Assembly (NCBI RefSeq): GCF_000787775.1
Contig: NZ_BBPM01000002.1
Span: forward strand, 213,044 to 277,043
Direction: 5' to 3'
From: Streptacidiphilus carbonis
Lineage (GTDB): Bacteria > Actinomycetota > Actinomycetes > Streptomycetales > Streptomycetaceae
DNA length: 64,000 nt
Shown here: piece by piece, positions 43,795 through 61,641 of the stretch
Numbering within the stretch: position 1 is the first letter of the stretch
Layout of the letters: the number at the start of each line of letters is the position of its first letter
Made by a program: the position numbers and the translations under genes
Notes under the pieces: model-generated
What the model saw: only the letters and a program-made list of their open reading frames with translations
Databases searched by the model: none
What the model was told of the DNA's origin: nothing

Positions 43795-43866
43795 GCCCCC
43801 GTAGCTCAGGGGATAGAGCACCGCCCTCCGGAGGCGGGTGCGTAGGTTCGAATCCTACCGGGGGCA
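43795..43866 (+). tRNA. tRNA-Arg (anticodon CCG)
   Basis: 72 nt without encoded CCA. The acceptor GCCCCCG pairs with CGGGGGC, the D stem is GCTC/GAGC, and the anticodon stem CCGCC/GGCGG encloses CTCCGGA with CCG in the middle. The T arm gtagg/cctac encloses TTCGAAT. It decodes CGG. The 3' acceptor strand is the integration site of the adjoining element and was rebuilt by element sequence. Its antisense is read as the last codons of the integrase frame. Confidence 0.97.
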
Positions 43867-45827
43867 CTCCGTGCATCCATCCGCGGTTCGCCGCGATGGG
43901 CACGTGTGCCGTCAGCAGTGCCTGCGGGCGTGGATAGTTTACTGTCCACGCCCGTTTTGCATGCGGTTTCGGAGTGGTTCAGGGGTGGTGCGCCGATGGT
44001 CTGTGCGACCTCCAGTGCTACGGTGCGCTGGGCCTCGATGGCGGCAGCGCGGAGGGTGACCTGGAGGTGCAGGTCTTCGCGGGCGCGGCTGTAGCGCAGT
44101 TCCAGGTTGAAGGCGTCGAACAGGCGGCGCTGCTCGGCGTCGGGGAGCCGGGTCACGTCGAGAGCCAGGTGCGGGAGTGCGTCCAGCAGGGCCTCGTCGG
44201 CGGCGAGGGTCGTGGCGGGGGTGGCGGCCAGCTCGGCCAGGCGGGACCGGTGGGTCTTCAGCTTCCTGCCCAGGGCGGCGTGTTCGGCGCGGATGGCGTC
44301 GCGGAACTGCCGCTCGGCGTCCTCATCGTCATCGCTGTCGCCGCCGGTTCCACCGGCGAGTGACTGGATCAGGCGCTGTTGGCGGCGTTCCAGGTCCTCG
44401 GCGGCTTTCACGAGCCGGGCGCGCTCGGCCTCTCGTGCTTCCTGTTCCGCACCGCCGGGCGCGGCCTGGAGCCGGCCGGCCAGGTGGAAGCGGCGGTCGG
44501 GTCCGAAGACCCGGTCTGCGAACAAGTCGGCGATATGCGGCATCAGCCGCTCCTCACGGACCATCATCATCCGTGGGTGGGCGTCGTACCAGGGCCGGTC
44601 GGAGTGCCGCTTGGGGTCCTTCGAGCAGGCGTAGTACGGGACACCGTGGTGGGTCACGCCCCACATCCGCCGCCCGCACAGGTCGCAGAACACGTAGCCG
44701 CGCAGCGGGTAGACGTGCTTGGTCAGCTTGTGCGGGTTCGGTTCGGCGCTGCCGCGCGAGCCGGTGCGGGTGCCCAGGATCTGGGCGACGGCGTCGAACA
44801 GTTCCTTGGTGACCAGCGGTTCGTGGGTGGGCCGGGGCGACCAGACCCACTCGCTCGGGTCGACGTTCTTGCCGCCGTGCTTGGTCGAGCGCCGGTTCCA
44901 GACCTGGTAGCCGGTGTACTTAGGGTTGCGCAGGATCTCGCGTACCGCGCCGCCGGTCCAGCACCCCACTGCCGCGCCGGCGCGGGTGGGCTGCGGGATC
45001 GGGTTCGCGGCCAGGTCCGCGTTCAGCCGGGCCGCGATCGAGTCGTAGCCGAGTTTCTCCAGCGCGCGGAGCTGGTAGATCCGGGTGACGACCGGTCCGC
45101 GCTCCGGGTCGGGGATCAGCCGGTGCTTCGTCCCGCCCTCCGCGCGGCGCGCGGGGACCGGGTGGGCGACCTTCTCCGCCCGGTAGCCGTAGGGCGGCTT
45201 GCCGGTGTTCCAGCCCTGCTGGGTGTGCTCCACGAAGCCGTCCCAGGACAGTTCCAGCATCTGCAGCACGTACCACTCGGCGACGGCCTGCTTCACGCGG
45301 CGGGTCAGCGTCGGGGTGGCCTTCTTCGCCTTCGCGCCGGTGGAGATCGGCTCGTCCGCCGCGCACAGGGCCACCCCGGCCTGCTCCAGCTCGTACTCGA
45401 CCTTCGTTCCGAAGTACGTGCGCCGGGCGACCCGCTCGATGGACTCGCAGATCACCGCGGCGAAGCGGCGGTCCGGGCGCTGGGCCTCGGCGAGCAGGTC
45501 GGCGATGCCGCCGTCGCGCGGGACGGGGATGTCGAAGCGGGTGTGGGCCTGGGAGTGCCCGCGCTGGGCCAGGTCCTTGCGGCCGGACTCGACGTCGTAG
45601 AAGTGCGCGACGATCACCCACCCCTGCGGCAGGGCCTTGCGGGCATTGGCCAGTTGGCGGGGCAGGGACAGCGTCGGGTCCTGGCTGTCCTCGGTCGACG
45701 TGCGGCCCAGCCACGCCACCGGGACCGCGACCGGGATCCGGTCCGCGTCCGGGAGCCGCTGTTCCGCCCAGGGCCGTCCCGGCACCGGACTGCCCCAGGT
45801 CCGTCCACTCGATGCAGTGTCAGTCAT
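43806..45827 (-). CDS. Large serine recombinase (integrase)
   Basis: 673 residues. The resolvase catalytic domain has Ser44 in WLGRTSTEDSQD and conserved arginines. The recombinase domain has GKPPYGYRAEK and EILRNPKYTGYQVWNRR. A zinc ribbon (VFCDLCGRRMWG...YYAC) and a coiled coil around residues 465-560 follow. The frame runs through the att site into the antisense strand of tRNA-Arg and stops inside it, so the last 16 residues (RIRTYAPASGGRCSIP) come from host tRNA. Joined to the other junction, the frame would instead run 30 codons beyond the crossover to a TGA at 61518-61520. It integrates and excises the element. Confidence 0.93.
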   Translation of the reverse strand: MTDTASSGRTWGSPVPGRPWAEQRLPDADRIPVAVPVAWLGRTSTEDSQDPTLSLPRQLANARKALPQGWVIVAHFYDVESGRKDLAQRGHSQAHTRFDIPVPRDGGIADLLAEAQRPDRRFAAVICESIERVARRTYFGTKVEYELEQAGVALCAADEPISTGAKAKKATPTLTRRVKQAVAEWYVLQMLELSWDGFVEHTQQGWNTGKPPYGYRAEKVAHPVPARRAEGGTKHRLIPDPERGPVVTRIYQLRALEKLGYDSIAARLNADLAANPIPQPTRAGAAVGCWTGGAVREILRNPKYTGYQVWNRRSTKHGGKNVDPSEWVWSPRPTHEPLVTKELFDAVAQILGTRTGSRGSAEPNPHKLTKHVYPLRGYVFCDLCGRRMWGVTHHGVPYYACSKDPKRHSDRPWYDAHPRMMMVREERLMPHIADLFADRVFGPDRRFHLAGRLQAAPGGAEQEAREAERARLVKAAEDLERRQQRLIQSLAGGTGGDSDDDEDAERQFRDAIRAEHAALGRKLKTHRSRLAELAATPATTLAADEALLDALPHLALDVTRLPDAEQRRLFDAFNLELRYSRAREDLHLQVTLRAAAIEAQRTVALEVAQTIGAPPLNHSETACKTGVDSKLSTPAGTADGTRAHRGEPRMDARSAPGRIRTYAPASGGRCSIP
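43858..43885. other. attL junction in the tRNA-Arg 3' end
   Basis: A 12-bp identity (ccgggggcactc, 43858-43869) with the right junction is followed at 43871-43885 by gtgcatccatccgcg. This is an inverted match (13 of 15) of 61586-61600 at the other end. Joining the two halves gives an attP with symmetric arms around the crossover. Confidence 0.8.
43925..43958 (+). terminator. Element-borne intrinsic terminator after tRNA-Arg
   Basis: A perfect 10-bp stem (43925-43934 with 43945-43954) followed by TTTT on the plus strand lies 59 bp beyond the tRNA. It is embedded antisense in the 3' end of the integrase gene and probably ends tRNA transcription in the integrated state. Confidence 0.75.
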
Positions 45828-45864
45828 GCCCGCTCCTGCCTCTCGCTCGGTGCGGCCCGGCAGC

Positions 45865-46149
45865 TCACGCGCCCCCGGCAGGCGGGTCCTGCTCCCGCTC
45901 CGGGTTGGCGTGCAGCCACTCCAGTGCCGCGCGGATCGCCGCGTCCTGCCGCTCCTGCAGGGCCTCGCCCTCCGGGCCGTCCACGGCGATGTACTCGACG
46001 GTCACCCGCAGCGGCCGGACAGCCGGCACCACCGCCGACCGCATGCGGCGGCGTGCCGGTCGACCAGGAACGGAACGGGATCCCCGTCCATCCACCCGTG
46101 GTCCGCCGACATCTTCAAGCGGTTCGGGGAAGTCCTCATCGATCGTCAT
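45865..46149 (-). CDS. Small hypothetical protein between int and the relaxation gene
   Basis: 94 residues from the ATG at 46149 (MTIDEDFPEPLEDV), overlapping the end of the upstream gene by 14 bp, so probably coupled. It is acidic at the N-terminus, with a region RPLRVTVEYIAVDGPEGEAL and a helix containing AIRAALEWLHANPE. No known domain is recognised. The position next to the integrase suggests an excision or regulatory role, which is a guess. Confidence 0.6.
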   Translation of the reverse strand: MTIDEDFPEPLEDVGGPRVDGRGSRSVPGRPARRRMRSAVVPAVRPLRVTVEYIAVDGPEGEALQERQDAAIRAALEWLHANPEREQDPPAGGA

Positions 46150-47089
46150 CGAAGCCCTCCGGTTCGACGGGGACGCGGCTGCGCCGGTCGACGGTGTATG
46201 CGGACCGGGCCGGCGGCAGGCCCGCGAGGGTGAACCGCGCAGGGGTCCCGCCGCTGATGCCCGCGGCTGCGACCGGCAGCCACACCGCCTCCCCCGGATC
46301 CGCTCCCGGGGCCAGCACCCCGGTGGCCACCGACAGGCCCGCCGCCAGCGCCGCGGGGCGCAGGTGCGTGCGGGCGTTGCGCTCACGCTGCTCGCTGAGG
46401 AAGCAGAACAGCACCCAGGGCTCCGGCCACGGGACCGTTTCGTCCTGGTCTCCGTGTTGCTGGCGCCAGTGGTCGTCCCGCAGGCTCTGGAAGAAGCGGT
46501 ATTCGGACAGCTTCTCGCTCAGCCGCTTCAACTGCTCGGTGCCGCGGTCGTACTCCAGGAAGAACGCCGTCTGCCCGCCGCCCTCGCGCCACCAGCCCCA
46601 ACTGTCGGGGCGGAAGCTGCGGTAGAGGTCCCCCAGATCCCGAAGCGTCCGCTCCCCCTGCCACGCCACCAACCCCTCCCCCACCACGTTGAGCCGGGAC
46701 GCCCTGGCGTGCAGCGCGCAGTAGAAGTCGTTGACGCCCAAGGAATGCGCCAGCTTCGGCTCCGACACTAGCGCCAGCGCCTGATCGCTCCTGGCACGCC
46801 GCAGGATCTTCGCCACCTCCTCCGGCGTACGATCCGGATCCTCGGCCGCAACGACCGCCGCGCCCAGCGGCGCGAGCACGTAGTGCATCGGGGCCGAGCC
46901 GAGCTCGCGGCGCGGCTGGAAGCAGTCCAGCACCTTCAAACCGACGAGCACCTTCATCCGGTGCCGCGCACTAATCGGACTCGTGAACTCCAGCGCCGCG
47001 ATCTGCCACGTCGTCAGCACCCGCAACTCCGCCAGCAGCACGAGCAGCCGACGGTCACGGGCAGTCAGATGCCGGGAGACCGAACGCAT
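46136..47089 (-). CDS. Replication-relaxation family protein
   Basis: 317 residues from the ATG at 47089 (MRSVSRHLTARDRRLLVLLA). The winged-helix N-terminus (LRVLTTWQIAALEF...ARHRMKVLVGLKVL) and the middle HSLGVNDFYCAL and FFLEYDRGTEQLKRL segments match the Replic_Relax family. That family is found on actinomycete plasmids and integrative elements, where it is linked to replication initiation. The exact biochemical role is unknown. It supports the mobile-element call. Confidence 0.8.
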   Translation of the reverse strand: MRSVSRHLTARDRRLLVLLAELRVLTTWQIAALEFTSPISARHRMKVLVGLKVLDCFQPRRELGSAPMHYVLAPLGAAVVAAEDPDRTPEEVAKILRRARSDQALALVSEPKLAHSLGVNDFYCALHARASRLNVVGEGLVAWQGERTLRDLGDLYRSFRPDSWGWWREGGGQTAFFLEYDRGTEQLKRLSEKLSEYRFFQSLRDDHWRQQHGDQDETVPWPEPWVLFCFLSEQRERNARTHLRPAALAAGLSVATGVLAPGADPGEAVWLPVAAAGISGGTPARFTLAGLPPARSAYTVDRRSRVPVEPEGFDDDR

Positions 47090-47565
47090 GGCCTGGAACG
47101 GAAGACGGACAGGAGCCGTATGGTCACCAGGCACGGGACACCGCCGCCCGCCGCCCGCGCACACCTATCGAGTGGGAACAGACCCCCTCACACGATAGGT
47201 CGCCGACACCACCGTCCACCCCAACACGGCCCTGACCAGGCATTACAGTGCTGGCAGGGGCGGACGGTGAAAGCGTCCGCGCCATCGTCCACCACACTTG
47301 CCGCCAGAGCGTCCGACCCGAACGACACCGTGAAGCAATCAGGAGAGCACCACCCACCCACACGCCTCGCTCTCAGCCGCCACGAGCGACGATTCGCCCC
47401 TCACCAGCAGGAAGACCCCGCACGGGCCCCTCCCAAACCACCTCCCGCATAGGTCATATCGTCAGCCCGCCTGGACGGGCTGACGCAGAAGGATGATCCA
47501 ACCGCTCACCGTTCCGCCGCCGGACTGCCATCCTGGGAGGGGACGGCGACAGGGAGTTGGGGCTC
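47090..47565. promoter_or_regulatory. 476-bp divergent spacer with two inverted repeats
   Basis: No supported gene. It has a perfect 8-bp dyad acctatcg/cgataggt (47162-47169, 47192-47199) near the minus-strand start, a plausible operator. A 10-bp hairpin (47460-47469 with 47476-47485) lies about 80 bp before the NUDIX start. Confidence 0.5.
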
Positions 47566-48099
47566 ATGCGGTGGCAGATCCATGGCGAGCGGCAGATCTA
47601 CAGCAACCCGTGGGTCAACCTCTGGCTGGTCGACGTCCAGCAGCCCGACGGCCGCCGCTGGGAGCACCACGTCGTGCGGATGCGGCACCTGGCTGTCGCT
47701 GCGGTGGTCGACGACCGCAAGCGCGTGCTGATGATGTGGCGGCACCGCTTCATCACCGACACCTGGGGCTGGGAACTGCCCATGGGCCTGATCGAGGCCG
47801 ACGAGACCCCCGAGCACGCCGCCGCTCGCGAGGTCGAGGAGGAGACCGGGTGGCGGGTGCATGCGATGAAACCGCTGATCTACGCTCAACCTGCGAACGG
47901 CATCACCGACTCCGAGCACTACGTCTTCCGCGCCGACGGGGCGACCTACATCGCCCCACCGACCGAGGTGAACGAGTCCGACCGCATCGAGTGGATCCCC
48001 CTCAACGAGATCCGGGCCATGATCGACCGCCGCGAGATCGTCAGCAGCGGCACCCTCGTCGGCCTCCTCTACCTCCTCCTGGACCAGGCCACCACATAG
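47566..48099 (+). CDS. NUDIX hydrolase
   Basis: 177 residues from the ATG at 47566, placed nine bases after agggag; a TTG at 47557 is possible. A complete NUDIX box runs from Gly74 to Trp96 (GLIEADETPEHAAAREVEEETGW minus its last residues), with the metal-binding REVEEE part at 88-93. The family hydrolyses nucleoside diphosphates linked to another group. The length and WELPMGLIE context resemble ADP-ribose/sugar pyrophosphatases. The product is cytosolic. Its role in the element is unknown. Confidence 0.9.
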   Translation: MRWQIHGERQIYSNPWVNLWLVDVQQPDGRRWEHHVVRMRHLAVAAVVDDRKRVLMMWRHRFITDTWGWELPMGLIEADETPEHAAAREVEEETGWRVHAMKPLIYAQPANGITDSEHYVFRADGATYIAPPTEVNESDRIEWIPLNEIRAMIDRREIVSSGTLVGLLYLLLDQATT

Positions 48100-48115
48100 C
48101 CCCCGGCCGCCGCCG

Positions 48116-49426
48116 TCAGCCGAACGCCGCCCGCATCCGCGCCTCGAACGCCACCACCGGGGCCGCACCGGCATACGGCGCGAGTCGGCGGTGGAAGTCC
48201 CGCACATGGCCGGCCACGCGCGGGGAGTCGATCGCGCTGGCCAGGTCCAGCGCAAGCGTCGCGCTGTCGCACGCCTGGTCCAGCTTCCCCTGCTGGAACT
48301 GGGCGCTGGCCAGCCAGAAGGCATGGAACGCCCGGCCGCGCTGCTGCTCCGCGCGCTCACGCCGCAGCCCCTCAGCGATCAACGGCTCCGCCCGCGGCGC
48401 CTCACCGAGGCGCGCCAGAGCGATACCGGTGTCCACCAGCAGTTTCGTCTCGTCGAAGTACCGCACCCACGCCGGAGCCTCCTCCGCCTGCCGGGCACGG
48501 CTGAAGGCGGAGTTCGCCCGTCCGATCGCGTCGTGGCAGGCAGCTGCGTCCCTCAGCGCGGCATGCGCGAACGCCTCCCGTATCTGCAGCATCGCCATGA
48601 CCAGCGGCGACTCCACGCCCCGGCGAACCGTGTCCTGTGCGGCGCAGGCCAGCGCAACCGCCTGCGTCGCCGCGCCCTCGTACGTCGCCTGCAAGCTCAT
48701 GCACGACAGCACGTTCGCGGTGAACGAGCGGTCCTCCAGTGCCCGCGCCGTGGCCAGGGCCTGCCGAAAGTAGATCCGTGCGGTACTGAACTGCCGGGCG
48801 TCGAAGTACGCCCATGCCGCGAGGCGTGCCAACTCCGCCGCCAGCACCCGCAGGTCACGCAGCAACGCCTCGGAGCACGAGCCGCCCATCAGGTCTGTGA
48901 CGTAGCGCAAGTGTCCGACCACCGCCGGGCGCAGCGACGCCCCGCCGTGCCGGTCATCGCGCTGCCAGTAGTCCTGGACCGAGGACTCCAAGGCCACCAG
49001 CGTCGAGCGGGTGATCTGCCCGTCCGCCAACGCCAACACGTCCGCCAACCCCGCATCGGCACCCTCGCCCCCCTCTCCCACCTCCGCCGCCGCGGGCGCT
49101 TCCGCCTCCCGCACTCGCACCTCGGCCGTCACGGGAATCTCCCACGGCCGGTGCGCCAGCCCCAGCAGCGCTCCAGGGATGCGCAGTCCGTCCGCCACCC
49201 TCTCGATGACCTCGATATGGGCCAGTCTCCGCCGTCCCGCCATCACCTCCCCCACCCGACTCGGTGTCAGTTCGCACAGCCGCGCGATCCGCGAGGGGTA
49301 CACCCCGGCCCGCGCCTGAACCATCCGAAAGATCCGCCCGAAGTCCCGATCCCGGCAAGCCGACCGAAACCCCGCCTCCGCCACAAGCTCCGCCGGTAAC
49401 CCGCCCCACTCGCCCGTCCCCGCCAC
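48116..49426 (-). CDS. HTH regulator with helical-repeat (TPR-like) domain
   Basis: 436 residues from the GTG at 49426 (VAGTGEWGGLPAELV), which follows an agggagg RBS; the frame opens further at 49471. A lambda-type helix-turn-helix lies near residues 35-85 (IARLCELTPSRVGEVMAGRRRL). A long helical domain with TPR-like pairs (RIYFRQALATARALEDRSF, RAFHAFWLASAQFQQGKLDQA) follows. This architecture is common in Streptomyces regulators of development and secondary metabolism. It is divergent from the ATPase gene, so the pair may be linked. The target is unknown. Confidence 0.82.
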   Translation of the reverse strand: MAGTGEWGGLPAELVAEAGFRSACRDRDFGRIFRMVQARAGVYPSRIARLCELTPSRVGEVMAGRRRLAHIEVIERVADGLRIPGALLGLAHRPWEIPVTAEVRVREAEAPAAAEVGEGGEGADAGLADVLALADGQITRSTLVALESSVQDYWQRDDRHGGASLRPAVVGHLRYVTDLMGGSCSEALLRDLRVLAAELARLAAWAYFDARQFSTARIYFRQALATARALEDRSFTANVLSCMSLQATYEGAATQAVALACAAQDTVRRGVESPLVMAMLQIREAFAHAALRDAAACHDAIGRANSAFSRARQAEEAPAWVRYFDETKLLVDTGIALARLGEAPRAEPLIAEGLRRERAEQQRGRAFHAFWLASAQFQQGKLDQACDSATLALDLASAIDSPRVAGHVRDFHRRLAPYAGAAPVVAFEARMRAAFG

Positions 49427-49597
49427 CGGTCGCCACCTCCCTGGCACCACGCCGACCACGGCTCCGAACACCGCCCACGAACGACATTACCCACGTTGGG
49501 TAACCACCATGGCCTGAATCCGTCACCCCGCCGCACAGCACGATCGACACGCGGACCACCGCCAGCCACACCCCGCAGCTACGGAAGGGACCTCCAC

Positions 49598-50041
49598 ATG
49601 CCCAGCACGGCCGCCGCACCTGACCAGGTCACCCACCTGACCTGGCAGATGCAGTTCACCTCCCACATCCAGTCCGTCAGCCTGGTCCGCAAGCAGGTCC
49701 GACGCACCCTGGACACCTGGAACATCCCCGAGGACGACACCACCACCGCGATCCTCATCTCCAGCGAACTGGCCACCAATGCAGTCCGCCACGGCCACAT
49801 CCACGGTCACCTCTTCGAAGTCGGGCTCGCCCTCACCCCCGGCGACCTGCTCATCGAAGTCTCCGACGCCAACCGAACCCCACCCAACTGGGCCACCCCG
49901 CTCACCGACGACCACGAGCACGGCCGGGGCCTCCACCTGGTCGCCGACCTCACCAACGGACGACTGAGCCACCAAGAACGCCACCCAGTCGGCAAAACCG
50001 TCCGCGCATACGTACACCTGACAACAGGACGAGAGAAGTAG
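49598..50041 (+). CDS. ATP-binding anti-sigma-type protein (HATPase_c_2)
   Basis: 147 residues from the ATG at 49598 with a ggaaggga RBS. The GHKL ATP site shows the N box SSELATNAVRHG (Asn61), G1 LIEVSDAN and G2 HGRGL. There is no phosphoacceptor His, so it is the RsbW-like serine kinase class that controls sigma factors or antagonists in Streptomyces. It is divergent from the HTH gene. Partners are unknown. Confidence 0.9.
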   Translation: MPSTAAAPDQVTHLTWQMQFTSHIQSVSLVRKQVRRTLDTWNIPEDDTTTAILISSELATNAVRHGHIHGHLFEVGLALTPGDLLIEVSDANRTPPNWATPLTDDHEHGRGLHLVADLTNGRLSHQERHPVGKTVRAYVHLTTGREK

Positions 50042-50783
50042 AGTCGACACCGACACCAGCGTCACCCACAGCCGCAGACTCCTCCCGGCCGAAACCCTGG
50101 CTGATCACGGGGCATCGCCGCCGACCGCACCGACGACGCGGTCACCATCACCAGCGGACTCACCACCAACGCCGAATGCGCAACCTTGCGCACCAACCGC
50201 GACATTCTGGTCGACTCATCCGGAACGCCTACCTGCGCTTACGAGGCATTCGACACCAAGGCTCGCGATCCCGCACGGTACCGTCCCGCCAACGACGTCT
50301 TCGCTGTGCCGGCTCGGTCAGTTGCGCACCAGCGGGGCGGCGACTCGTCCGGGGCTTCGCGGAATCCATAGGGTCGCCCCCGACGGCCTCCTGGCCCTGG
50401 GGACTGCAGAAGATGGCGGCGGGTGTGAGACCAGGGCGAGACCGGCGGCGAAGATGCCGTAGACCAGGTGCTTGGTGTTCTCGATGGCCTCCCCGTAGAG
50501 GGCGCGGCGAACTGCACCACCATCACGCCGACCGTGCAGACCATGACCGCCACCAGGGCCTTGCGCACCGGATTGCGCCGCGTCCTGCGGTACCAGAAGA
50601 TCCCGAACACGCCCAGGTCCAGCACGCCGGGCAGCAGGGTCGGGAAGGTCGTCTTCGCCGGGCTCGCACTCCTCCGAGACCGGCCCTGAGGCGAGAACCG
50701 CACCAGCGCCCAGCCACTCCCAAGGTGGACGAAGAGGACCATGGACCCTACGTGTGTCAGTGGGGTCAGATAGCCTCAGTCCT
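50042..50783. other. 742-bp degenerate spacer before hsdM
   Basis: No intact gene. Plus-strand codons from about 50150 to 50300 read like part of a protein (TLRTNRDILVDSSGTPTCA) without a start. The right part holds a broken minus-strand membrane gene. A TAGCCT hexamer at 50771-50776 could be the -10 for a leaderless hsdM transcript. It looks like a scar of earlier gene loss. Confidence 0.4.
50410..50742 (-). pseudogene. Frameshifted remnant of a small membrane protein
   Basis: The minus-strand frame from 50742 encodes FWYRRTRRNPVRKALVAVMV and a membrane helix, then loses sense at about 50495. The next frame continues with LYGEAIENTKHLVYGIFAAG, a second helix. A single base indel would join them. 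I do not recognise the family. Confidence 0.4.
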
Positions 50784-52334
50784 GTGATTACAGGTGAGCT
50801 GAAGAGCAAGATCGACCGACTGTGGGACTCCTTCTGGTCAGGAGGGATCTCCAACCCGCTGGAGGTCATCGAGCAGATCACTTACCTGATGTTCATCCGC
50901 CGCCTGGACGGGATCCAGACCACCAAGGAGAACAAGGCCAACCGACTCGGCAGGCCGGTCGAGAGTCCGATCTACACCTTCGCCTCGGAGGCGGAGGGAA
51001 CCAAGGACACTCACCATCTCCGCTGGTCACGGTTCACCGGCCTCGGCGACCCCGGGGCGATGCTCGACGTGGTTCGCGAAGGCGTCTTCCCCTGGCTGCG
51101 GACCCTCGGCGGCGAGGATTCCACCTACTCGCACCACATGAAGGACGCCCGCTTCACCATTTCCACCCCGAGCCTGCTGGCCAAGGCCGTCGACATGCTC
51201 GACGGCATCCCCCTGGACGAACGCGACGTCAAGGGCGACCTGTACGAGTACATGCTCAGCAAGATCGCCACGGCCGGCCAGAACGGGCAGTTCCGCACTC
51301 CGCGCCACATCATCCAGCTGATCGTGGAGATGATGGCGCCCCGGCCCATGGACGAGATCTGCGACCCGGCGTGCGGCACCGCCGGGTACCTCGTCGCGGC
51401 AGCGGAGTACGTGGAACGCACGCACGCTGAGGCGATGCTCGGGCCGGAGCAGCGGCAGCACTTCAACGAGAGCATGTTCCACGGCTTCGACTTCGACAGC
51501 ACGATGCTCCGCATCGGCAGCATGAACATGCTGATGCACGGCGTCGAGAACCCCGACATCCGCTACCGCGACTCCCTGGCCGAAGGCACAGCGGGCGAGG
51601 AGGAGCGGTACTCGATGATCCTGGCCAACCCGCCGTTCGCCGGCAGCCTGGACTACGAAGCCACTGCGAAGAACCTGCAGGCGGTCGTCAAGACCAAGAA
51701 GACCGAACTGCTCTTCCTGGCACTGTTCCTGCGGCTGCTCAAGCCTGGCGGGCGGGCGGCGGTCATCGTCCCGGACGGGGTGCTGTTCGGCGCCAGCAAG
51801 GCCCACACGGAACTGCGGAAGCTCCTCGTCGAAGGGCACAAGCTGGACGCGGTGGTGAAGCTGCCGGGCGGGGTGTTCAAGCCGTACGCCGGGGTCTCGA
51901 CCGCGATCCTGTTCTTCACCAAGACCAACAGCGGCGGCACGGACAACGTGTGGTTCTACGAGGTCACGGCGGACGGCTGGAGCCTGGACGACAAGCGGCA
52001 GCCACTGCTGGCCGAGGACAAGCTCGGCCCGGTGCCGAGTGAGGCCCCGAGCGGGGACGCTGGTGAGCACGCGAAGAACAACCTGCCGGATGTGCTGGAC
52101 CGCTGGAAGCGGCGGAACGGCAGCGAGCAGAAGCGGGAGCGGACGGAACAGAGTTTCTGCGTACCGAAGGCCGACATTGCGGCACAGGGGTACGACCTCA
52201 GCCTGAACCGGTACAAGGAGATCGTGCACGAGGAAGTCGAGCACCGGGCGCCGGGGGACATTCTGGACGAGCTGGCTCGGATTGAAGCAGAAATTCAGCA
52301 GGGGATGAGCGAATTGAAGGGGATGCTGGGATGA
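50784..52334 (+). CDS. hsdM: Type I restriction-modification DNA methyltransferase subunit
   Basis: 516 residues from the GTG at 50784 (VITGELKSKIDRLWDSFWSG), the conserved family start; the frame extends to 50754. The N-terminal HsdM_N helical domain is followed by motif I DPACGTAGYL (194-203) and the adenine-MTase motif NPPF (282-285). With HsdS it methylates N6-adenine in a bipartite target. Its stop overlaps the hsdS start (ATGA). Confidence 0.96.
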   Translation: MITGELKSKIDRLWDSFWSGGISNPLEVIEQITYLMFIRRLDGIQTTKENKANRLGRPVESPIYTFASEAEGTKDTHHLRWSRFTGLGDPGAMLDVVREGVFPWLRTLGGEDSTYSHHMKDARFTISTPSLLAKAVDMLDGIPLDERDVKGDLYEYMLSKIATAGQNGQFRTPRHIIQLIVEMMAPRPMDEICDPACGTAGYLVAAAEYVERTHAEAMLGPEQRQHFNESMFHGFDFDSTMLRIGSMNMLMHGVENPDIRYRDSLAEGTAGEEERYSMILANPPFAGSLDYEATAKNLQAVVKTKKTELLFLALFLRLLKPGGRAAVIVPDGVLFGASKAHTELRKLLVEGHKLDAVVKLPGGVFKPYAGVSTAILFFTKTNSGGTDNVWFYEVTADGWSLDDKRQPLLAEDKLGPVPSEAPSGDAGEHAKNNLPDVLDRWKRRNGSEQKRERTEQSFCVPKADIAAQGYDLSLNRYKEIVHEEVEHRAPGDILDELARIEAEIQQGMSELKGMLG

Positions 52335-53500
52335 GCAAGTTTCCCCTAACTAAACTGGGCATGGCGGCGACGATCGAGCGCATTGCCATTCAACCTTCCG
52401 AAATCGATGACACTACGCCGTATATTGCTCTCGAAAATATCCAGCGCGGCGGAAAAATCATCAACGTCGAATCCGCCGGCGCTGCCGAGATTGCCAGCGC
52501 TAAATTCAGATTCACGGATAAGCAAGTTCTCTTTGGGAAATTGCGTCCTTACTTGGCAAAAATCTCACGCCCTACATTCAGCGGAGTTTGCAGCACTGAC
52601 ATTCTTCCAATTTCACCGGGGCCCGATCTCGACAAAGACTACCTGTGCCACTTTCTCTCCCTCCCAAGTACGGTGGCCCTTGCCGCATCCCGCTCTACTG
52701 GCGCAAATCTCCCACGCCTGGCACCAAAAGAGCTGGCAAGCATCGAAATCCCTCTTCCTTCCATCGCAGAGCAGCGTCGCATCGCCCAGGTGCTGGATAG
52801 CGTGGATGCGCTGCGCGCCAAGCGCCGCGAGGCCATCGCCCTCCTCGACGACCTCGCCCAGTCAATCTTCCTGGACATGTTCGGCGATCCTGCTAAAAAT
52901 CTCAAGGGCTGGCCAATGCACCCCTTGGGGGATCTCGGCAGCTTGGACCGTGGCGTATCAAAGCATCGTCCACGCAATGACCCAAAACTACTAGGGGGAG
53001 ATCATCCACTAATTCAAACCGGCGACGTTGCGTCATCACATGGATATATCACGGATTTCACCAGCACCTATTCAGATTTCGGACTGGCTCAAAGTCGACT
53101 CTGGCCGACCGGAACTCTATGCATCACCATTGCTGCAAATATTGCCAAAACTGGCATTCTCAAATTTGACGCCTGCTTCCCCGATAGCATCGTCGGATTT
53201 TCTGCCGATTCCTCTACCGCTGAATACGTGCAGACATGGCTGTCATTCCTGCAGAAGAACCTCGAACGAATGGCCCCCGAGTCCGCTCAGAAGAATATCA
53301 ATCTCGCCATCCTCAGAGGTCTCAAAATTCCGCACCCGGGAAGCGTTTTGATCGATAGGTTTGCGGCGCGCCTGCAGGAAATCTCAGCTCTCAAGGGATC
53401 ACAAACCGCATCTCTCGGCGAGCTCGACTCCCTCTTCGCCTCCCTCCAGCACCGCGCCTTCCGCGGCGAGCTCTGGAACGCCCCAGTCCCCAGCGCCTGA
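52331..53500 (+). CDS. hsdS: Type I restriction-modification specificity subunit
   Basis: 389 residues with two target-recognition domains and two helical spacers (SIAEQRRIAQVLDSVDALRAKRREA near 150, and the C-terminal SLGELDSLFASLQHRAFRGEL). Base composition is patchy. The TRD stretches (about 52340-52760 and 52900-53390) are far more AT-rich and use unusual codons, while the spacers and the end match the GC-rich neighbours. This is the classic sign of TRD exchange. Overlaps hsdM by 4 bp. Confidence 0.94.
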   Translation: MSKFPLTKLGMAATIERIAIQPSEIDDTTPYIALENIQRGGKIINVESAGAAEIASAKFRFTDKQVLFGKLRPYLAKISRPTFSGVCSTDILPISPGPDLDKDYLCHFLSLPSTVALAASRSTGANLPRLAPKELASIEIPLPSIAEQRRIAQVLDSVDALRAKRREAIALLDDLAQSIFLDMFGDPAKNLKGWPMHPLGDLGSLDRGVSKHRPRNDPKLLGGDHPLIQTGDVASSHGYITDFTSTYSDFGLAQSRLWPTGTLCITIAANIAKTGILKFDACFPDSIVGFSADSSTAEYVQTWLSFLQKNLERMAPESAQKNINLAILRGLKIPHPGSVLIDRFAARLQEISALKGSQTASLGELDSLFASLQHRAFRGELWNAPVPSA

Positions 53501-53548
53501 CCCGCCCCGTGCCACCCACCCCGTCCGCACCAGGAAAGGGCACCACCC

Positions 53549-56500
53549 ATGAGCAACTTCGCGTTCCTCAAGGCCGAGTGGCCCGACCTGCACGCTGAGG
53601 CGACCCACGCCGAGCGTCTCGCCCACGCGGACCCCCGCGCGTCGTGCTTCTACGCCCGCCGGTCCCTGGAGATCGCGCTGACCTGGCTCTACCAGGCCGA
53701 CAGCACGCTCCAGCTCCCCTACAAGGAGGACCTGGCCGCGATGATCGCCGAGCCGACCCTCCTCAAGGCCGCCGGTCCGGCGATCCGCACCAAAATGGAT
53801 GTGATCCGGCGTCAGGGCAACGTCGCCGTCCACCGCAAAACCGGCGTAACGGCCAACGACGCCGTCCGCGTGATCAGCGAGCTGTTCCATGTCATGTACT
53901 GGCTCGCCCGCACCTACTCCCTCCACGAGGCCGACACCCCCACCCCCGGGCTGGCCTTCGACCCGGCTGCCGTCCCCCGCCCGCTCTCCCCCACGACCCG
54001 CATCGCCAAGCAGGCCGAGCTCAAGGCGCAGGCCGCGAAGTACGCCGAGCAGGACGCCGCCCTGATCGCCGAGCGCAACAAGAACGCGAACCTCGACGCC
54101 GAGCTGAAGGCCCTGCGCGCCCAGATCAAGACCGCCAAGGCCGCGAACGCGTCCAAGCCCGACACCCACGACTACAACGAGGCCGAAACCCGCGACCTCA
54201 TCATCGATCTGCTCCTCAAAGAGGCAGGCTGGACCCTCGAACAGCCCCAGGACCGCGAGTACCCGGTCACCGGCATGCCGACCACAGCCTCCCCCTCCGG
54301 AACCGGCAAGGTGGACTACGTCCTGTGGGGCGACGACGGCAAGCCCCTCGCCCTGGTCGAAGCCAAGCGCGCGACCCGCGACGCCACCGCCGGCCAGCAC
54401 CAGGCGAAGCTCTACGCCGACTGCCTGACCGCGCAGTTCGGCCAGCGCCCCGTCATCTTCTACACCAACGGCTACGAGACCTACCTCTGGGACGACAGCA
54501 CCTACCCGCCCCGCTTCGTCCAGGGCTTCTACACCAAGGACGAACTCCGCCTGCTGATCCAGCGCCGCTCCAGTCGCCGCAGACTGGCCAAGCTGCCGGT
54601 GAACGACGAGATCGCCGGACGGCACTACCAGACCCACGCCATACGCCGCATCGCCGAAACCTTCGAGCAGGATGCCGCCCGCCAGGCCCTGCTGGTCATG
54701 GCGACCGGCTCCGGCAAGACCCGTACGGTCATCGCCCTTACCGACCTGATGTTCCGGGCCAACTGGGCCAAGCGCGTCCTGTTCCTGGCCGACCGCACTG
54801 CCCTGGTCGCCCAGGCCACCAACGCCTTCAAGAAGCACCTGCCGAACTCACCGGTCGTCAACCTGCTGAACGCCGACAAGGACCTCGAAGCCCGGGTCTT
54901 CGTCTCCACCTACCAGACCCTGATGAACCGCATCAACGAGATCGACGCCAACGGCCTGCGCCGTTTCGGTCCCGGCTACTTCGACCTGATCGTCGTCGAC
55001 GAGGCGCACCGCTCGATCTACCAGAAGTACGGCGCGATCTTCGACTACTTCGACGCCCTCCTGGTCGGCCTCACCGCCACCCCCAAGGACGAGATCGACC
55101 GAAACACCTACCGCCGCTTCAACCTGGAAGACGGCATCCCCACCGACGTCTACAGCCTGGAGACCGCCGTCTCCGAGGGCTACCTGGTCGCCCCGCAGGC
55201 CGTCAACGTCCCCCTGAAGTTCCAGCGCGGCGGCATAAAGTACGCCGACCTCTCCGAGGAGGACAAGGAGCGCTGGGACGAGCTGGAGTGGAGCGAGGAC
55301 GGCGACGTCCCCGACGAGGTCAGCACCGAAGAGCTCAACAAGTACCTCTTCAACGCAGACACCGTCGACAAGGCCCTGATGACGCTGATGACCGAGGGCC
55401 TCAAGGTCGCCGGCGGAGACCGCCTGGGCAAGACCATCATCTTCGCCAAGAACATCGACCACGCCGAGTTCATCGCCAAGCGCTTCGACGCCAACTACCC
55501 GGAGTTCAAGGGCGAATTCGCGCAGGTGATCGTCAGCGGGAAGGACTACGCCCAGTCCCTCATCGAGCAGTTCTCCGACCCCGCCAAGGCCCCGCACATC
55601 GCCATCTCCGTCGACATGCTCGACACCGGCATCGACGTCCCCGAGGTCGTCAACCTGGTCTTCTTCAAGCTCGTCCGCTCCAAGACCAAGTTCTGGCAGA
55701 TGATCGGCCGCGGCACCCGTCTCTCTCCCGACCTCTTCGGCCCCAACCGCGACAAGACCGGCTTCCTGGTCTTCGACCTGTGCCAGAACATCGAGTTCTT
55801 CAACCAGGACCTCATGCCGCCCGAGGGCAAGGTCGGCCCTTCCCTCGGCCAGCGCCTCTTCGAGCGCCGCGCGGACCTCATCCTGGCCCTGGACGACCAG
55901 CACCCGACCTCGCCGCAGCCCGCCGACGCCGACGCCGACGCCGACGACAGCGACCCGTCCGACGGCACCAAGAGCGACACCGGACTGCGCCGCGACCTGG
56001 CCCACCGCCTCCACGACGAGGTCGTCGGGATGAACCCCGAAAACTTCCTGGTCCGCCAGCACCGCCGCCAGTACGACACCTACGCAGCCTTCGACAGCTG
56101 GCTCACTCTCACCCCCGAAGCCCATGCCGAGGTCGTCGACCACCTCGCCGGACTCCCGACCAGCTTCCGCGACCAGGACAGCAGCGAGGAAGCCAAGCGC
56201 TTCGACCTGCTCTCCCTCCGCCTCCAGCTCGCCCTGATCAACGCCGACCCCGGCTACGCCCGGCTCCAGGGCCAGGTCCAGCAAATCGCCTCACTCCTCC
56301 TGGACCAGACGACCATCCCCGCCATCGCAGCCCAGCAGCTACTGCTCGACGAGCTCGCCGGCGACGAATGGTGGCAGGACGTCACCCTGCCCATGCTGGA
56401 AACCATGCGCCGCCGCATCCGCAGCCTGGTCAAGCTGATCGTGAAGACCAAGCGCGAGATCGTCTTCACCGACTTCGAGGACGAACTCGGCGAGATCGCC

Positions 56501-57019
56501 GCCGCCTCCCTGCGCGGCATGGAGATCGGCGCCGACCGCACCCGCTTCGAGCAGAAGATGCGGATCTTCCTGCGCACCCACGAGAACGACCTGGCGGTCC
56601 AGAAGATCCGCCGCAACCGTCAGATCACCGCCACCGACCTGACTCAGCTGGAGCAGATCTTCCTGGAGGCCGGCATCGGCACCGAGGCCGACATCGACCA
56701 CGCCCGAACAGGATCCGGCGGCATGGGCCTGTTCCTGCGTTCTCTCACCGGCCTGGACCGCGCGGACGCCGCCCACGCGTTCAGCAAGTTCCAGGAGGGC
56801 AAGACCCTCACCTCCCCTCAGCTCCGCTTCGTCAACCACGTGATCGACTACCTCGCCCGCAACGGCACCATAGAAATCGAAGCCCTCTACGAGTCCCCTT
56901 TCAACTCACTCGCCCCAGGCGGCCCCGAAGGCATCTTCCCCGGAGCCGACGTCGACGCGATCGTCACCGTCATCCACGGCATCCGCGCGACAGCCGTAGC
57001 CGCCGAGCAAGCGTCTTGA
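53549..57019 (+). CDS. hsdR: Type I restriction endonuclease subunit (EcoEI-like) with DUF4145 N-terminus
   Basis: 1156 residues. An N-terminal DUF4145-like helical domain (about 20-125) and a coiled-coil linker precede the HSDR_N nuclease with Asp256 and Glu271-x-Lys273 (LALVEAKRA). The SF2 motor has Walker A ATGSGKT (385-391), DEAH (484-487) and SLTATP-like GLTATP. The C-terminal EcoEI_R_C-type helical region binds the methylase. It translocates DNA and cleaves unmodified DNA. It follows hsdS by 48 bp. Confidence 0.95.
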   Translation: MSNFAFLKAEWPDLHAEATHAERLAHADPRASCFYARRSLEIALTWLYQADSTLQLPYKEDLAAMIAEPTLLKAAGPAIRTKMDVIRRQGNVAVHRKTGVTANDAVRVISELFHVMYWLARTYSLHEADTPTPGLAFDPAAVPRPLSPTTRIAKQAELKAQAAKYAEQDAALIAERNKNANLDAELKALRAQIKTAKAANASKPDTHDYNEAETRDLIIDLLLKEAGWTLEQPQDREYPVTGMPTTASPSGTGKVDYVLWGDDGKPLALVEAKRATRDATAGQHQAKLYADCLTAQFGQRPVIFYTNGYETYLWDDSTYPPRFVQGFYTKDELRLLIQRRSSRRRLAKLPVNDEIAGRHYQTHAIRRIAETFEQDAARQALLVMATGSGKTRTVIALTDLMFRANWAKRVLFLADRTALVAQATNAFKKHLPNSPVVNLLNADKDLEARVFVSTYQTLMNRINEIDANGLRRFGPGYFDLIVVDEAHRSIYQKYGAIFDYFDALLVGLTATPKDEIDRNTYRRFNLEDGIPTDVYSLETAVSEGYLVAPQAVNVPLKFQRGGIKYADLSEEDKERWDELEWSEDGDVPDEVSTEELNKYLFNADTVDKALMTLMTEGLKVAGGDRLGKTIIFAKNIDHAEFIAKRFDANYPEFKGEFAQVIVSGKDYAQSLIEQFSDPAKAPHIAISVDMLDTGIDVPEVVNLVFFKLVRSKTKFWQMIGRGTRLSPDLFGPNRDKTGFLVFDLCQNIEFFNQDLMPPEGKVGPSLGQRLFERRADLILALDDQHPTSPQPADADADADDSDPSDGTKSDTGLRRDLAHRLHDEVVGMNPENFLVRQHRRQYDTYAAFDSWLTLTPEAHAEVVDHLAGLPTSFRDQDSSEEAKRFDLLSLRLQLALINADPGYARLQGQVQQIASLLLDQTTIPAIAAQQLLLDELAGDEWWQDVTLPMLETMRRRIRSLVKLIVKTKREIVFTDFEDELGEIAAASLRGMEIGADRTRFEQKMRIFLRTHENDLAVQKIRRNRQITATDLTQLEQIFLEAGIGTEADIDHARTGSGGMGLFLRSLTGLDRADAAHAFSKFQEGKTLTSPQLRFVNHVIDYLARNGTIEIEALYESPFNSLAPGGPEGIFPGADVDAIVTVIHGIRATAVAAEQAS

Positions 57020-57114
57020 ACTGTCCTCTACACGCTCCCATCACCCTTTCGGGTGGCCTGTCCGGACCGCCCGGCTGACTTAAGACCAACCTGGTAGACA
57101 TATCTCTGGCTACC

Positions 57115-57142
57115 TTGAATCAGCGCTGTAAACTAGATTCAA
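57115..57142. promoter_or_regulatory. Dyad operator candidate at the XRE-ImmA gene
   Basis: Inverted arms TTGAATC (57115-57121) and GATTCAA (57136-57142) lie just before the aaaggaggt RBS, with a CAGCGCTG palindrome (57121-57128) overlapping the left arm. It fits an operator for self-repression by the encoded XRE domain. Confidence 0.6.
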
Positions 57143-57155
57143 AAGGAGGTGCTAC

Positions 57156-58361
57156 GTGGATCTCGTGCTTGTGGGGGAGCGGATCCGCCAAGAGCGCGAG
57201 CGTGCCGGCTACAACCAGCGACAGCTCGCCGAGCGCTCCATGCTCTCCCAGCCCACCCTGAACCGCATCGAACTCGGCACACGTGCCAGAGTCACCCTGG
57301 TCGAAATCGACCGCATCGCATCCGCCCTCGACATCCCGGTACGGCTTCTCACCAGTGGGAACCCGCTGCGGGACCGTGTCCAGATCGCCGCCAGGACCAA
57401 TGATCTCGTCCCTGCCGACCGCGACGCCGCCATCCGGCATGTCCTGGAAGTCCTCGAACTGGACGCCCGACTCGACGCCGCCGGGTTGACCTCCAAGCGG
57501 CAACGACGCCGACCCGTCGGCGTCACCATTCCCGACGAGTCACTGCCGATGGAGAAGCAGGCCAAAGAGCTTGCTGCTCAGGTACGAGCCGATCTCGGCT
57601 TGGGCAGCGCCCCAATCTCCGACATCGACGAGCTGATCGAGCGATTCACCGGAGTGGACACCGCCGTGCTGAAGCTGCCAAGCAGCAGGGACGGCTTCAC
57701 CGCCACCGACCCAGAACTCAACACCACCCTCATCGTCGTACGCACCTGCAACGTTCCCGAACGGCAACGCTTCAGCTTCGCCCATGAGCTGGGCCACCTC
57801 CTTTGGGGTGACGGCGCGAAGGTCCACCAGTTGGAGGACCGGCGCTCACTGGGCGAGCGCCGAAGCGACAGCTTTGCCCGCCATCTACTCGCTCCTCAAG
57901 AGGGCGTCGAGGCTTGGCTGGCCGACGAGGGCGCCAGAGCCGACAGCGAGGTGGACGAGCGGACAGCAGCACTACTCGCCCGCTACTTCCGAGTCAGCTT
58001 CCAAGTCGCCCTGATCCAACTGTCCGAGCTGGGGCTGATCACAGATGCCCAGAAATCCAAGCTACTTGGACCGACGGGCACCGACCTCGCACAGCGCTAC
58101 GGCTGGGGACCCGCCTATGAACAGGAGCAAGAGTCAGCTGAGGTGATCCGACCACCACGGCGCATCTTGGAGCGTGCGGTAGAGGCGTATCGTCAAAACC
58201 TCATCGGCGTCAAAGCCCTGGCTATGCTTGAGGGGCGCAAGGCCGAGGAGGCCCGATCCGCACTGGAAGAAGCCGGGATCGTCCCGTCTTCACCAGTCAC
58301 CGGGCGGGCCGACCTGTCGCGCTTGATCGCTCGTGGGCGGAAGCAGCGCGACGCCGGTTAG
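57156..58361 (+). CDS. XRE regulator fused to ImmA/IrrE metallopeptidase
   Basis: 401 residues from the GTG at 57156 with a textbook aaaggaggt RBS. An XRE HTH occupies residues 8-60 (QRQLAERSMLSQPTLNRIEL). A linker precedes the ImmA/IrrE domain with zinc motif HELGH (210-214) and a downstream Glu-rich helix. The C-terminal part of about 100 residues is helical. ImmA-type peptidases cleave repressors or antitoxins in response to a signal. It starts 136 bp after hsdR and precedes a PIN-like gene by 17 bp, which suggests a toxin-regulation pair. Confidence 0.9.
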   Translation: MDLVLVGERIRQERERAGYNQRQLAERSMLSQPTLNRIELGTRARVTLVEIDRIASALDIPVRLLTSGNPLRDRVQIAARTNDLVPADRDAAIRHVLEVLELDARLDAAGLTSKRQRRRPVGVTIPDESLPMEKQAKELAAQVRADLGLGSAPISDIDELIERFTGVDTAVLKLPSSRDGFTATDPELNTTLIVVRTCNVPERQRFSFAHELGHLLWGDGAKVHQLEDRRSLGERRSDSFARHLLAPQEGVEAWLADEGARADSEVDERTAALLARYFRVSFQVALIQLSELGLITDAQKSKLLGPTGTDLAQRYGWGPAYEQEQESAEVIRPPRRILERAVEAYRQNLIGVKALAMLEGRKAEEARSALEEAGIVPSSPVTGRADLSRLIARGRKQRDAG

Positions 58362-58378
58362 CGTCGCTGGGGGAACCG

Positions 58379-59053
58379 TTGAAGGGTGAGGGCTTGCCTG
58401 AGGAGCGCAGTGAAGCAGTCGACGAGGACGCTTCACCTCAACGTGAGCCGCTGTGCATTCTCGACGCGGTCATCTGCGTCCACTTCGTAGGCGCGAACCT
58501 CCATCGCCTGCTGATCGACGTACTCCGCCAGGCCGACCTCAGGCTCCTGGTCCCCCAGGAGGTCTGCGACGAGATCTCCGGCAAGGACAAGAAGTTCCCG
58601 GGGGTCGGCCTGCGGTGGAACCGGCTCGCGAAGAGCCGGTACATCCAGGTCCTTCCGCAGCTCGAGGCCGTTTCTGCCCCGGCCCGCGCGGTCGAGGTCT
58701 TCGAAGAGGTCCGTGAGCGTCAGTTTGAGGACGCCTACCGCGACCCCCGAGACCTGGGCGAAGCCGTAGTGGTCGCCCACGGGGTGCACCAGCGCGACCT
58801 GGGGAACGACGTCTGGCTGGCCATCGACGACCAAGGCGGCCGAGCCATCGCTGCCGCCCGCGGCCTCCAACTCCTCTCCATCGAGGATGTCCTGACGATG
58901 GCCGTGGCCTTCGGCAAGTTCGATACCGAAGGCGACCTGAAGGACGTCTACGGGAAGCTCCGCAAGTATGGCGAGGGGTTGGTCCCGTACAACCGGACTG
59001 ACCTGGCGATAGTGCACAAGGAGTGGAAGGAACAGTCGAAGACGCAGCAGTGA
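58379..59053 (+). CDS. PIN-domain-like nuclease, candidate toxin
   Basis: 224 residues from a TTG at 58379 (no ATG or GTG is available before the conserved core; a TTG at 58394 is also possible). PIN-type acidic residues are Asp29 (LCILDAVICV), Glu128 (DLGEAVVVAHG) and Asp150/Asp151 (LAIDDQGGRA), with helical sequence between. PIN proteins cut RNA. It follows the XRE-ImmA gene by 17 bp on the same strand, as in DUF4411-type ImmA/PIN pairs, although this protein is longer and not obviously that family. Confidence 0.75.
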   Translation: MKGEGLPEERSEAVDEDASPQREPLCILDAVICVHFVGANLHRLLIDVLRQADLRLLVPQEVCDEISGKDKKFPGVGLRWNRLAKSRYIQVLPQLEAVSAPARAVEVFEEVRERQFEDAYRDPRDLGEAVVVAHGVHQRDLGNDVWLAIDDQGGRAIAAARGLQLLSIEDVLTMAVAFGKFDTEGDLKDVYGKLRKYGEGLVPYNRTDLAIVHKEWKEQSKTQQ

Positions 59054-59338
59054 GTCGGCGCTGCCATTCAGGTCAGCCCCTGCTTAGCCGCAGAGCCCAG
59101 CACTACCGCGTTACCCACCGCGCCCCGGCCTCTGGGCAACGACCAGCGCACTCGCCCAGGGCCTCCAGTAGACGCGGGACCCACTGGGCTGACGCCCCCC
59201 ATCACAAGTGACTCGTGGCGAGCGATCGGGCCATGCCCGTGCGGCTGGCGCGGCTTGGTTGTCAGTGCTGCATGCAAGACTCGCTTCATGGGGCGCACTA
59301 CGAAACTGTGCCCCCGCACGCGCCAGAGAAGAGACGAA
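59054..59338. other. Spacer before the CBASS-like operon
   Basis: 285 bp with no supported gene and no clear promoter. In-frame alternative starts for the next gene are at 59255 (TTG) and 59288 (ATG). Confidence 0.5.
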
Positions 59339-60349
59339 GTGACCTATCTGTACGACCAGTTCGGCGAAGTACTGTCGATGATCAACCTCGACCCCGACGT
59401 TCTTGCGGCTTCTCGCGACCGGCTGCGGCTCGCTCGAGAGTCGGCTGAGCTACACCCGGAAGGGCGGAAGTCATTCTCCTCCGGATCCATCCAGACGCAC
59501 ACCCATATCCAACCGCATGCGAATGCAGTCAGCGACGGCGATGGCGGCATCATCTTGGATCGGGTGAAGCATCCTTCTCTGGGGCCAGACGGAGACGGCG
59601 AGACTCCTCAGGAGATCACTGACGCTCTCGTTTCCTTCGTGGGCCCAGAGATTCGCAAGGTGCACCCGAATGCCCGGGTCTACAAGTCCAAGCGGGGCCT
59701 CAAGATCCATTTCGGCAGTCCGGTCAACGACACTGACGTCACAGTCGACCTCATCGTCGCCCTCGAACGGCGTAGTGCCCGCGGCCTGTGGATCCCCAAC
59801 CTCAAGACGGACGAATGGGAGCCTTCCGACCCCATCGGGCACGCGGACCTGCTCAACGCTGCCCCCGACGCCCTCCGTCGCATGCGGCGCAAGGTGATTC
59901 GGCTCGTCAAGGCGTGGAACGCCCAGGCGACCACGCCCGGATTCTCCTCGCACAATCTGTCTGTATGGGGCTACGAGTTCGTCGCCGACGGCACGGGGCT
60001 GGTCAAGAATGTCCACTCTGTGCTCTCTCAGGCGGCACAGCGGATCGCGGACGGCGAGCCCACCGCGGATCCGCAGGGCGTGTCGCCCGACATCAATCCG
60101 TTGGTTTCGGATGAGGTGGCCGAGCGGCGCCTGCGAATCGCAGCTCAGAAGCTCCAGGCCGCAATCGATGCCCCCGATGACGTTGATGGCGTCCAGCAGG
60201 TCCTCGAACACCTCTTTCCCAAGACGATAGAGCAGGCCGCCGAGTCCTTCGCTGCCGCCCCGCATGCACGCACCTTCACAACGGCCCAGCTCGGACTCGC
60301 CGGGCCCAGCCAAAGAATCCCGTCGACCCGATCCTGGAAGCAGAGGTAG
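59339..60349 (+). CDS. CD-NTase (cGAS/DncV-like nucleotidyltransferase), CBASS type
   Basis: 336 residues from the GTG at 59339 (VTYLYDQFGEVLSMINLDPD), after a GA-rich stretch that may be the RBS; an ATG at 59288 is possible. A SMODS-type helix is followed by the nucleotidyltransferase motif Gly49-Ser50 and Asp66-x-Asp68 (AVSDGDGGII), with the third metal Asp137 in DVTVDLIVALE. A helical C-terminal half is typical of CD-NTases. It would make a cyclic oligonucleotide on phage infection. The next gene, an E2-like protein, starts 6 bp later. Confidence 0.85.
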   Translation: MTYLYDQFGEVLSMINLDPDVLAASRDRLRLARESAELHPEGRKSFSSGSIQTHTHIQPHANAVSDGDGGIILDRVKHPSLGPDGDGETPQEITDALVSFVGPEIRKVHPNARVYKSKRGLKIHFGSPVNDTDVTVDLIVALERRSARGLWIPNLKTDEWEPSDPIGHADLLNAAPDALRRMRRKVIRLVKAWNAQATTPGFSSHNLSVWGYEFVADGTGLVKNVHSVLSQAAQRIADGEPTADPQGVSPDINPLVSDEVAERRLRIAAQKLQAAIDAPDDVDGVQQVLEHLFPKTIEQAAESFAAAPHARTFTTAQLGLAGPSQRIPSTRSWKQR

Positions 60350-60355
60350 GCAGCG

Positions 60356-61454: not shown

Positions 61455-61585
61455 CCCTCCACCGGCGCCCTGATCCCCGTCGGCACTGCCAAGGTGGGAG
61501 TCGAGATACCATCGTCATCAGACCTGACTCACGAACTGGCCGACCGTGATCACCAGCAGTTCCCGCGACGCCACACCGGCCCCAA

Positions 61586-61623: not shown

Positions 61624-61641
61624 GATCGCAGAACGCAGCTA

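Follow-up and report, generated by a model that had tools for sequence, protein, structure and literature searches.

A serine integrase gene that reads through its own attachment site: probable exchange of the integrase C-terminus on insertion at tRNA-Arg

The integrase gene int in the window (the whole stretch of 64,000 nucleotides that was analysed) ends inside a tRNA gene. This raises the question of whether that end belongs to the enzyme, or whether int has another 3' end, to which it is joined when the element is circular.

The int gene and the ends of the element

The integrated form of int (43806..45827, minus strand) is an open frame that runs from 45827 to the TGA at 43806-43808, and its translation has 673 residues. 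The Pfam domains Resolvase, Recombinase and Zn_ribbon_recom were all found in it above their cut-offs, which places int among the large serine recombinases. The residues R42, S44, Q49, S54 and R57 are invariant across 25 integrase sequences; a serine is expected in an enzyme of this kind. A relative with a solved structure was sought by sequence, and none was found at E 0.01. The AlphaFold2 model of the integrated form (25 sequences) had a mean pLDDT of 67.6 and a pTM of 0.34, and because of this pTM it was used for disorder alone. The protein is predicted to be folded as far as the helix 594-611. Because the pLDDT is below 50 over residues 618-673, the part that is exchanged between the two states probably sits in a flexible tail of the integrated form.

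The target is a tRNA-Arg(ccg) (43795..43867, plus strand; Rfam tRNA, 67.9 bits), whose last 10 bases are derived from the element. The attL core CCGGGGGCACTC (43858..43869) has a second copy at 61612..61623, the attR core. This 12-bp repeat is the sole word of at least 12 bases common to 43780-43960 and the rest of the window, from which 43700-43970 was left out. The integrated element would thus span 43858..61611 (about 17.75 kb), as indicated by the core repeat, an inverted repeat and empty sites elsewhere. After the ends are joined, the attP arm on the int side, CTCCGTGCATCCATCC (43867..43882), forms an inverted repeat with the arm from the element's far end, GGATGGATCCACAGAG (61589..61604). 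The repeat scored 21/30, which was the best among 18,930 far-end positions scored against the int-side arm, and it is formed solely by joining the element ends. The result is an attP of about 50 bp with inverted half-sites, as expected of a large serine recombinase. The symmetry centre, as read by eye, is the CC/GG at 43858-43859; this is the candidate 2-bp crossover, and lies at the T-stem/acceptor boundary of the tRNA.

The element-free flanks (220 nt joined) were matched contiguously in 10 of the 13 other genomes of the same genus, with 82-89% identity; in the remaining three (G003, G009 and G011) the flank match ends at the junction. Since no other position tested gives as good an inverted repeat and the empty site is contiguous in these 10 genomes, attB, attP and the element ends are well supported by the sequence. 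The tRNA is restored on integration, because attP carries the tRNA 3' end. The arginyl-tRNA synthetase gene (41409-43109) adjoins the tRNA-Arg target. ARAGORN also reported an unusually long tRNA-Phe (100 nt) at 2083-2182.

Joining the ends in silico gave a circular form of int with 687 residues. The offset between the core copies, 17,754, is divisible by 3, so the int frame is kept across the joined ends. Residues 1-657 are common to both states. They are followed in the circle by 30 new residues from the circle-only 3' segment (61518..61611, minus strand), and in the integrated form by the 16 residues 658-673. About 20 residues of int are antisense to the tRNA, yet only the last 16 differ between the states, because the last 10 bases of the tRNA are part of the element's own sequence.

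The original prediction held that the int frame crosses the attachment site, and this is confirmed by the translation, the 12-bp core and the conservation of the frame in relatives. Its claims that the last 16 chromosomal residues are antisense tRNA-Arg, and that the circle reads about 30 different residues up to a TGA at 61518-61520, also agree with the translated and joined ends. The doubt it attached to attP can be eased, since the inverted repeat, the core and the empty sites all favour the reconstructed site. Two C-termini, of 687 and 673 residues in total, are therefore supported for the window element, and likewise for its relatives (below). These indicate that int owns a terminal segment that is joined to it solely in the circle.

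A strong hairpin with a short T-run (43924..43960, plus strand, that of the tRNA) lies inside the int frame, and is the probable replacement terminator for the tRNA transcript. The fold of 43915-43970 has a free energy of -34.3 kcal/mol (z -6.8). A hairpin occurs at the same place in the close Streptomyces relatives L003, L004, L005, L011 and L213, and is absent in L010. Across the relatives, a hairpin with a T-run was found in 26 of 83 loci vs 28 of 249 shuffles, in which blocks of two bases were dealt out so that dinucleotides were not strictly preserved; none was found on the int strand. On the attR side, another hairpin with a T-run was seen by eye near 61641-61690, and it is probably the displaced original host terminator. 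Given the element-borne hairpin and the displaced host terminator, the int linker in this group probably doubles as a terminator for the tRNA.

The region 50754-61454 is a defence island, with a type I restriction-modification system (HsdM, S, R), an RmrA-like XRE-peptidase and a CBASS-like set. The latter comprises a cyclase (59255-60349), an E2 (60356-60826) and a 1TM effector (in 60558-61454), and its end adjoins the int 3' segment.

Relatives of the integrase and their circular tails

The genome scan gave 79 loci from the best 80 of 100 confirmed stretches, and whole-genome searches added further loci. A check proposed with the original prediction was to see if the genes of other serine recombinases that integrate in tRNA genes also end there. 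This was borne out: a tRNA T-arm was found at the crossover in 75 of 100 loci (L001-L100, the window's included), and 64 of these 75 have a complete tRNA antisense to int. The complete targets include 34 tRNA-Arg (ccg 14, tct 11, cct 9) and 22 tRNA-Leu (caa 11, taa 10, cag 1); the remainder are Glu (5), Thr (2) and Met (1). No tRNA starting on the int strand was found within 300 nt of these crossovers. Eleven loci (L006, L014, L019, L020, L023, L024, L030, L069, L074, L076 and L086) had no whole tRNA detected beside the integrase; by eye, the tRNA is cut off close to its anticodon loop, which would fit the insertion of a second element into it. The distant serine integrases of L092, L094, L095, L098 and L100 (about 30-33% identity) end inside tRNA-Leu(gag), with an overlap that varies.

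In 81 of 83 loci, the int frame has no stop in the 120 nt that precede the crossover, whereas the other two frames are free of stops there in 33 and 42. These 83 loci contain the crossover and have an identity of at least 35%; for L009, L012, L036 and L083, which are among them, the frame comes from a partial match. The two exceptions are L036 and L083, in which the best int match ends early, probably through a frameshift. Int enters the tRNA in frame A at 48 loci, in frame B at 15 and in frame C at 20, and loci with the same frame group together on the tree. The frame tracks the integrase tree, while the target changes between tRNAs for Arg, Leu, Glu, Met and Thr. In the mainly Pseudonocardiales part of the tree, the frame is constant despite the changing target; L059 departs from its sister L053. 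The departures of L009 and L012 coincide with int matches that break off before the tail.

Circular readings were reconstructed for the elements with a flank and a crossover at hand. From 57 elements examined, 24 attPs were accepted, and a contiguous attP in L034 was added. The 25 attPs comprise 21 of frame A, three of frame B and one of frame C, with the frame of L012 and L036 (best int match ending early) set to that of their clade. In 23 of the 25, the int frame runs on for 27-37 codons after the crossover before it stops; the +1 and +2 frames have a stop in this range in 0 and 1 of 25, respectively. Since the elements and tails are related to one another, neither these counts nor the dN/dS pairs below are independent. 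The exceptions are L012, with a tail of 6 codons, and L064, with one of 20. L032, L039 and L060 were accepted on weaker palindromes (13, 13 and 14 of 30), with a core of 9/9 and tails that resemble the others. Without these three and L034, whose int is out of frame just before its contiguous attP, the stop falls at 27-37 codons in 19 of 21. The L034 attP (G181 C11, about 10705) lies on a contig of 153.7 kb and is immediately preceded by a strong hairpin; it could be part of a free circle or a tandem copy. The other 33 of the 57 elements yielded no acceptable attR within the flanking DNA examined; for example, no convincing attR was found there for L014, L016, L017, L019, L062, L070, L081, L082, L084, L085, L218 and L219. 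The integrated-form tail past the crossover ranges from 10 to 159 residues across the elements measured.

Thirteen frame-A tails (12 reconstructed, and that of L034) share a recognisable peptide, for example GAARTASTRTRTRRELLVSATVDVVRRHRRR in L020. In their aligned core, the peptide identity is 0.55 in frame vs 0.35 and 0.34 out of frame, and codon positions 1, 2 and 3 differ at 0.35, 0.25 and 0.50 per site. The median dN is 0.39 and the median dS is 1.00, with dN<dS in 70 of the 73 usable pairs (78 pairs, 5 without a usable value dropped). The sequences thus show that the circular segment in these 13 relatives is real coding sequence under purifying selection, because it keeps the int frame, a single length range and a conserved protein sequence. 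In a solved LSR complex, a 25-bp half-site is contacted (PMC3783163). The REL core of the tails starts about 13-14 codons from the crossover, beyond such a half-site, and so a DNA-binding site alone does not explain the conservation. Many of the Pseudonocardiales tails are arginine-rich with a strand-like motif. Since the circular C-terminus is conserved in the 13 relatives and the stop position is tightly set, the native enzyme is probably the circular form, whose end the tRNA tail replaces.

The tail of the window is more divergent. The seven Streptomyces-type tails, the window's included, show a common pattern by eye; their dN is about equal to dS, with dN<dS in 12 of 20 usable pairs (21 pairs, 1 dropped) and sites near saturation. 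Among the four closest of them, dN<dS holds in 5 of 6 pairs. An HMM of 22 other tails, which left out the window, L012 and L064, did not place the window's tail among the eight best of 445 element fragments, so that its motif RELLVITVGQF is a match by eye alone. The assignment of the window tail is thus backed by its position, frame and length, and its homology to the other tails is unproven.

Some relatives do not fit. The int frames of L007, of L018 and of the viral contig L141 end about 60 residues short of the expected crossover, and that of L008 ends soon after the conserved domain. These four may be decayed copies, because no tRNA adjoins them; a different arrangement is an alternative for L007, L018 and L141. 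Five loci (L031, L056, L065, L072 and L096) have non-tRNA sequence at, near or beyond the crossover, and these are possible secondary attachment sites. A phage or plasmid that carries this integrase, as a free form, was also sought, and none of the 64 plasmid and 87 phage matching records covers 80% of the query; the viral contigs searched held one relative, L141. A stop-start overlap ahead of a longer reading frame is present in some elements. The idea that the far-end segment is, as a rule, coupled translationally to the following gene was dropped; in the window, the frame overlapping the stop has only 44 codons.

The proposed switch and its alternatives

The sequence shows that attP lies inside the 3' end of int and that integration exchanges the tail that the gene encodes; it is likely, in our judgement, that this exchange switches the enzyme and stabilises the inserted state. 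In the circle, int reads through attP into the terminal segment, which the element carries at its far end. Integration at the candidate crossover, where the T-stem of tRNA-Arg meets the acceptor stem, moves this segment 17.7 kb away, and antisense tRNA codons take its place; both steps can be followed in the sequence. An incoming circle would make full-length Int, and the element would integrate. The Int newly made after integration would be without the circular tail that is conserved in relatives, and might be less active or differently regulated, as in Mx8. The reaction would thus switch its own enzyme and stabilise the inserted state, and excision would restore the original gene. The tail exchange could plausibly affect excision or stability, given that the Mx8 integrase is described as less active after a like exchange in the available text of PMC4701971. 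Reduced or redirected Int activity after integration, stabilising the inserted state, is the most likely form of such an effect. The circular tail may also be dispensable, since residues 618-673 are predicted to be disordered. A stronger proposal is offered tentatively and with some doubt: the circle-only tail might be needed for integration and the antisense-tRNA tail might lock the element, as a control of directionality beyond or instead of the RDF. In the relatives, the circle-only tail contains a strand-like segment and, in many cases, a run of arginines after it.

The exchange might instead be a passive by-product, if attP follows a disordered linker, the frame is open through GC-rich DNA and the tails have no effect on the enzyme. 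The low pLDDT (<50) of residues 618-673, the window tail that the family tail HMM does not recognise, and the stops about 60 residues earlier in L007, L018 and L141 (though none of these is at a tRNA) are consistent with this. However, it is unlikely: the alternative frames are for the most part interrupted by stops (open in 33 and 42 of 83 loci, vs 81 for the int frame), the in-frame stops cluster at 27-37 codons (23 of 25 vs 0 and 1), and purifying selection acts on 13 tails. It is quite unlikely that the tails chiefly set protein stability, as in the BPs repressor, whose degradation tag is removed by integration. None of the 25 circular tails ends in AA, and the arginine-rich Pseudonocardiales tails with their strand-like motif are unlike a tag; on the other side, BPs gp33 was described as losing 33 residues on integration, including an ssrA-like tag (available text of PMC4557955), and the exchanged tails here are of similar length.

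The integrated, tRNA-tailed form could also be the better excision enzyme, so that each reaction would set the enzyme up for the opposite one. In principle the exchange can run backwards, and neither frame is closed, which bears on this idea indirectly. However, that tail is set by the host tRNA and what follows it, and with 10 to 159 residues it is unlikely to be an optimised part; moreover, the opposite was reported for Mx8 in the available text (PMC4701971), and the idea is very improbable. That the conserved far-end segment is a separate small gene, and not the end of int, is extremely improbable: the integrated element does carry int at one end and this segment at the other, but in every subfamily the two are in frame at the crossover, and the common reading begins at the attP arm, where there is no start codon.

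If the proposed exchange of the tail as a switch is true, a large group of actinobacterial serine integrases that target tRNA genes employs its own recombination as a genetic switch. A protein read from an integrated copy in this group would carry a host-encoded tail, without its own end. Serine integrases are standard tools of genome engineering, and the paired natural proteins allow a direct test of whether the C-terminus sets direction.

Comparison with known systems

Integrases that extend across attP are known for Mx8 and SSV, and serine integrases in tRNA genes have been called rare or unknown, according to the available texts (PMC4383910 for both; PMC3218068 for the latter). No tRNA-targeting serine integrase with state-dependent C-termini was found in the literature searched (titles and abstract starts, with subscription papers mostly outside). 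The principle has precedents (Mx8, the rumA ICEs), and in that literature the tRNA-targeting serine version is without a known one.

The actinobacterial AICEs in tRNA-Leu also have a serine integrase at a tRNA, with eight elements described in Mycobacterium (PMC3218068); the likeness lies in the published description, and an overlap of int and att is unmentioned in the available part of that text. The window element contains a Replic_Relax domain; whereas FtsK/TraB, which together with int and rep defines an AICE, was absent among the 20 translated ORFs scanned, a subset of the element's ORFs with some outside the element or in unlikely frames.

In the archaeal SSV-type suicidal integrases, the att site also lies inside the integrase gene, and integration splits the gene (available text of PMC8371274). 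These are tyrosine recombinases cut through the core into two inactive parts; whereas int has serine domains, its catalytic and DNA-binding domains stay whole, and the last residues alone change. The integration-dependent immunity of BPs (PMC4557955) and ORF13 of RSS0 (PMC3816273) were described, in the parts of these texts available, as cases in which the C-terminus of a regulatory protein is changed by integration. The changed gene there is a repressor or regulator and not the integrase; in integration-dependent immunity attP lies in the repressor gene, whereas here it lies in int.

The Int/IntX of Mx8 is closer, since its attP is inside int and integration replaces the C-terminus, as is found for the window int. 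Its 112-residue end was reported to be replaced by 13 residues on integration, giving a less active form (available text of PMC4701971); the exchange was also described as modifying the specificity of the integrase rather than inactivating the enzyme (available text of PMC6070905). However, these sources concern a tyrosine recombinase of single phages (Mx8, Mx9); whereas large serine recombinases of many actinobacterial elements are involved here, with a shorter exchange.

The streptococcal rumA ICEs are also alike: a large serine integrase whose gene contains the att site, and which changes in length and C-terminus, was noted there in 2016, with the same functional suggestion (available text of PMC4701971). 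Their target is a protein gene whose 3' part is also swapped, and the conservation of the circular tail is not described in the available text; whereas in the elements studied here the target tRNA is restored, and the integrated tail is antisense tRNA.
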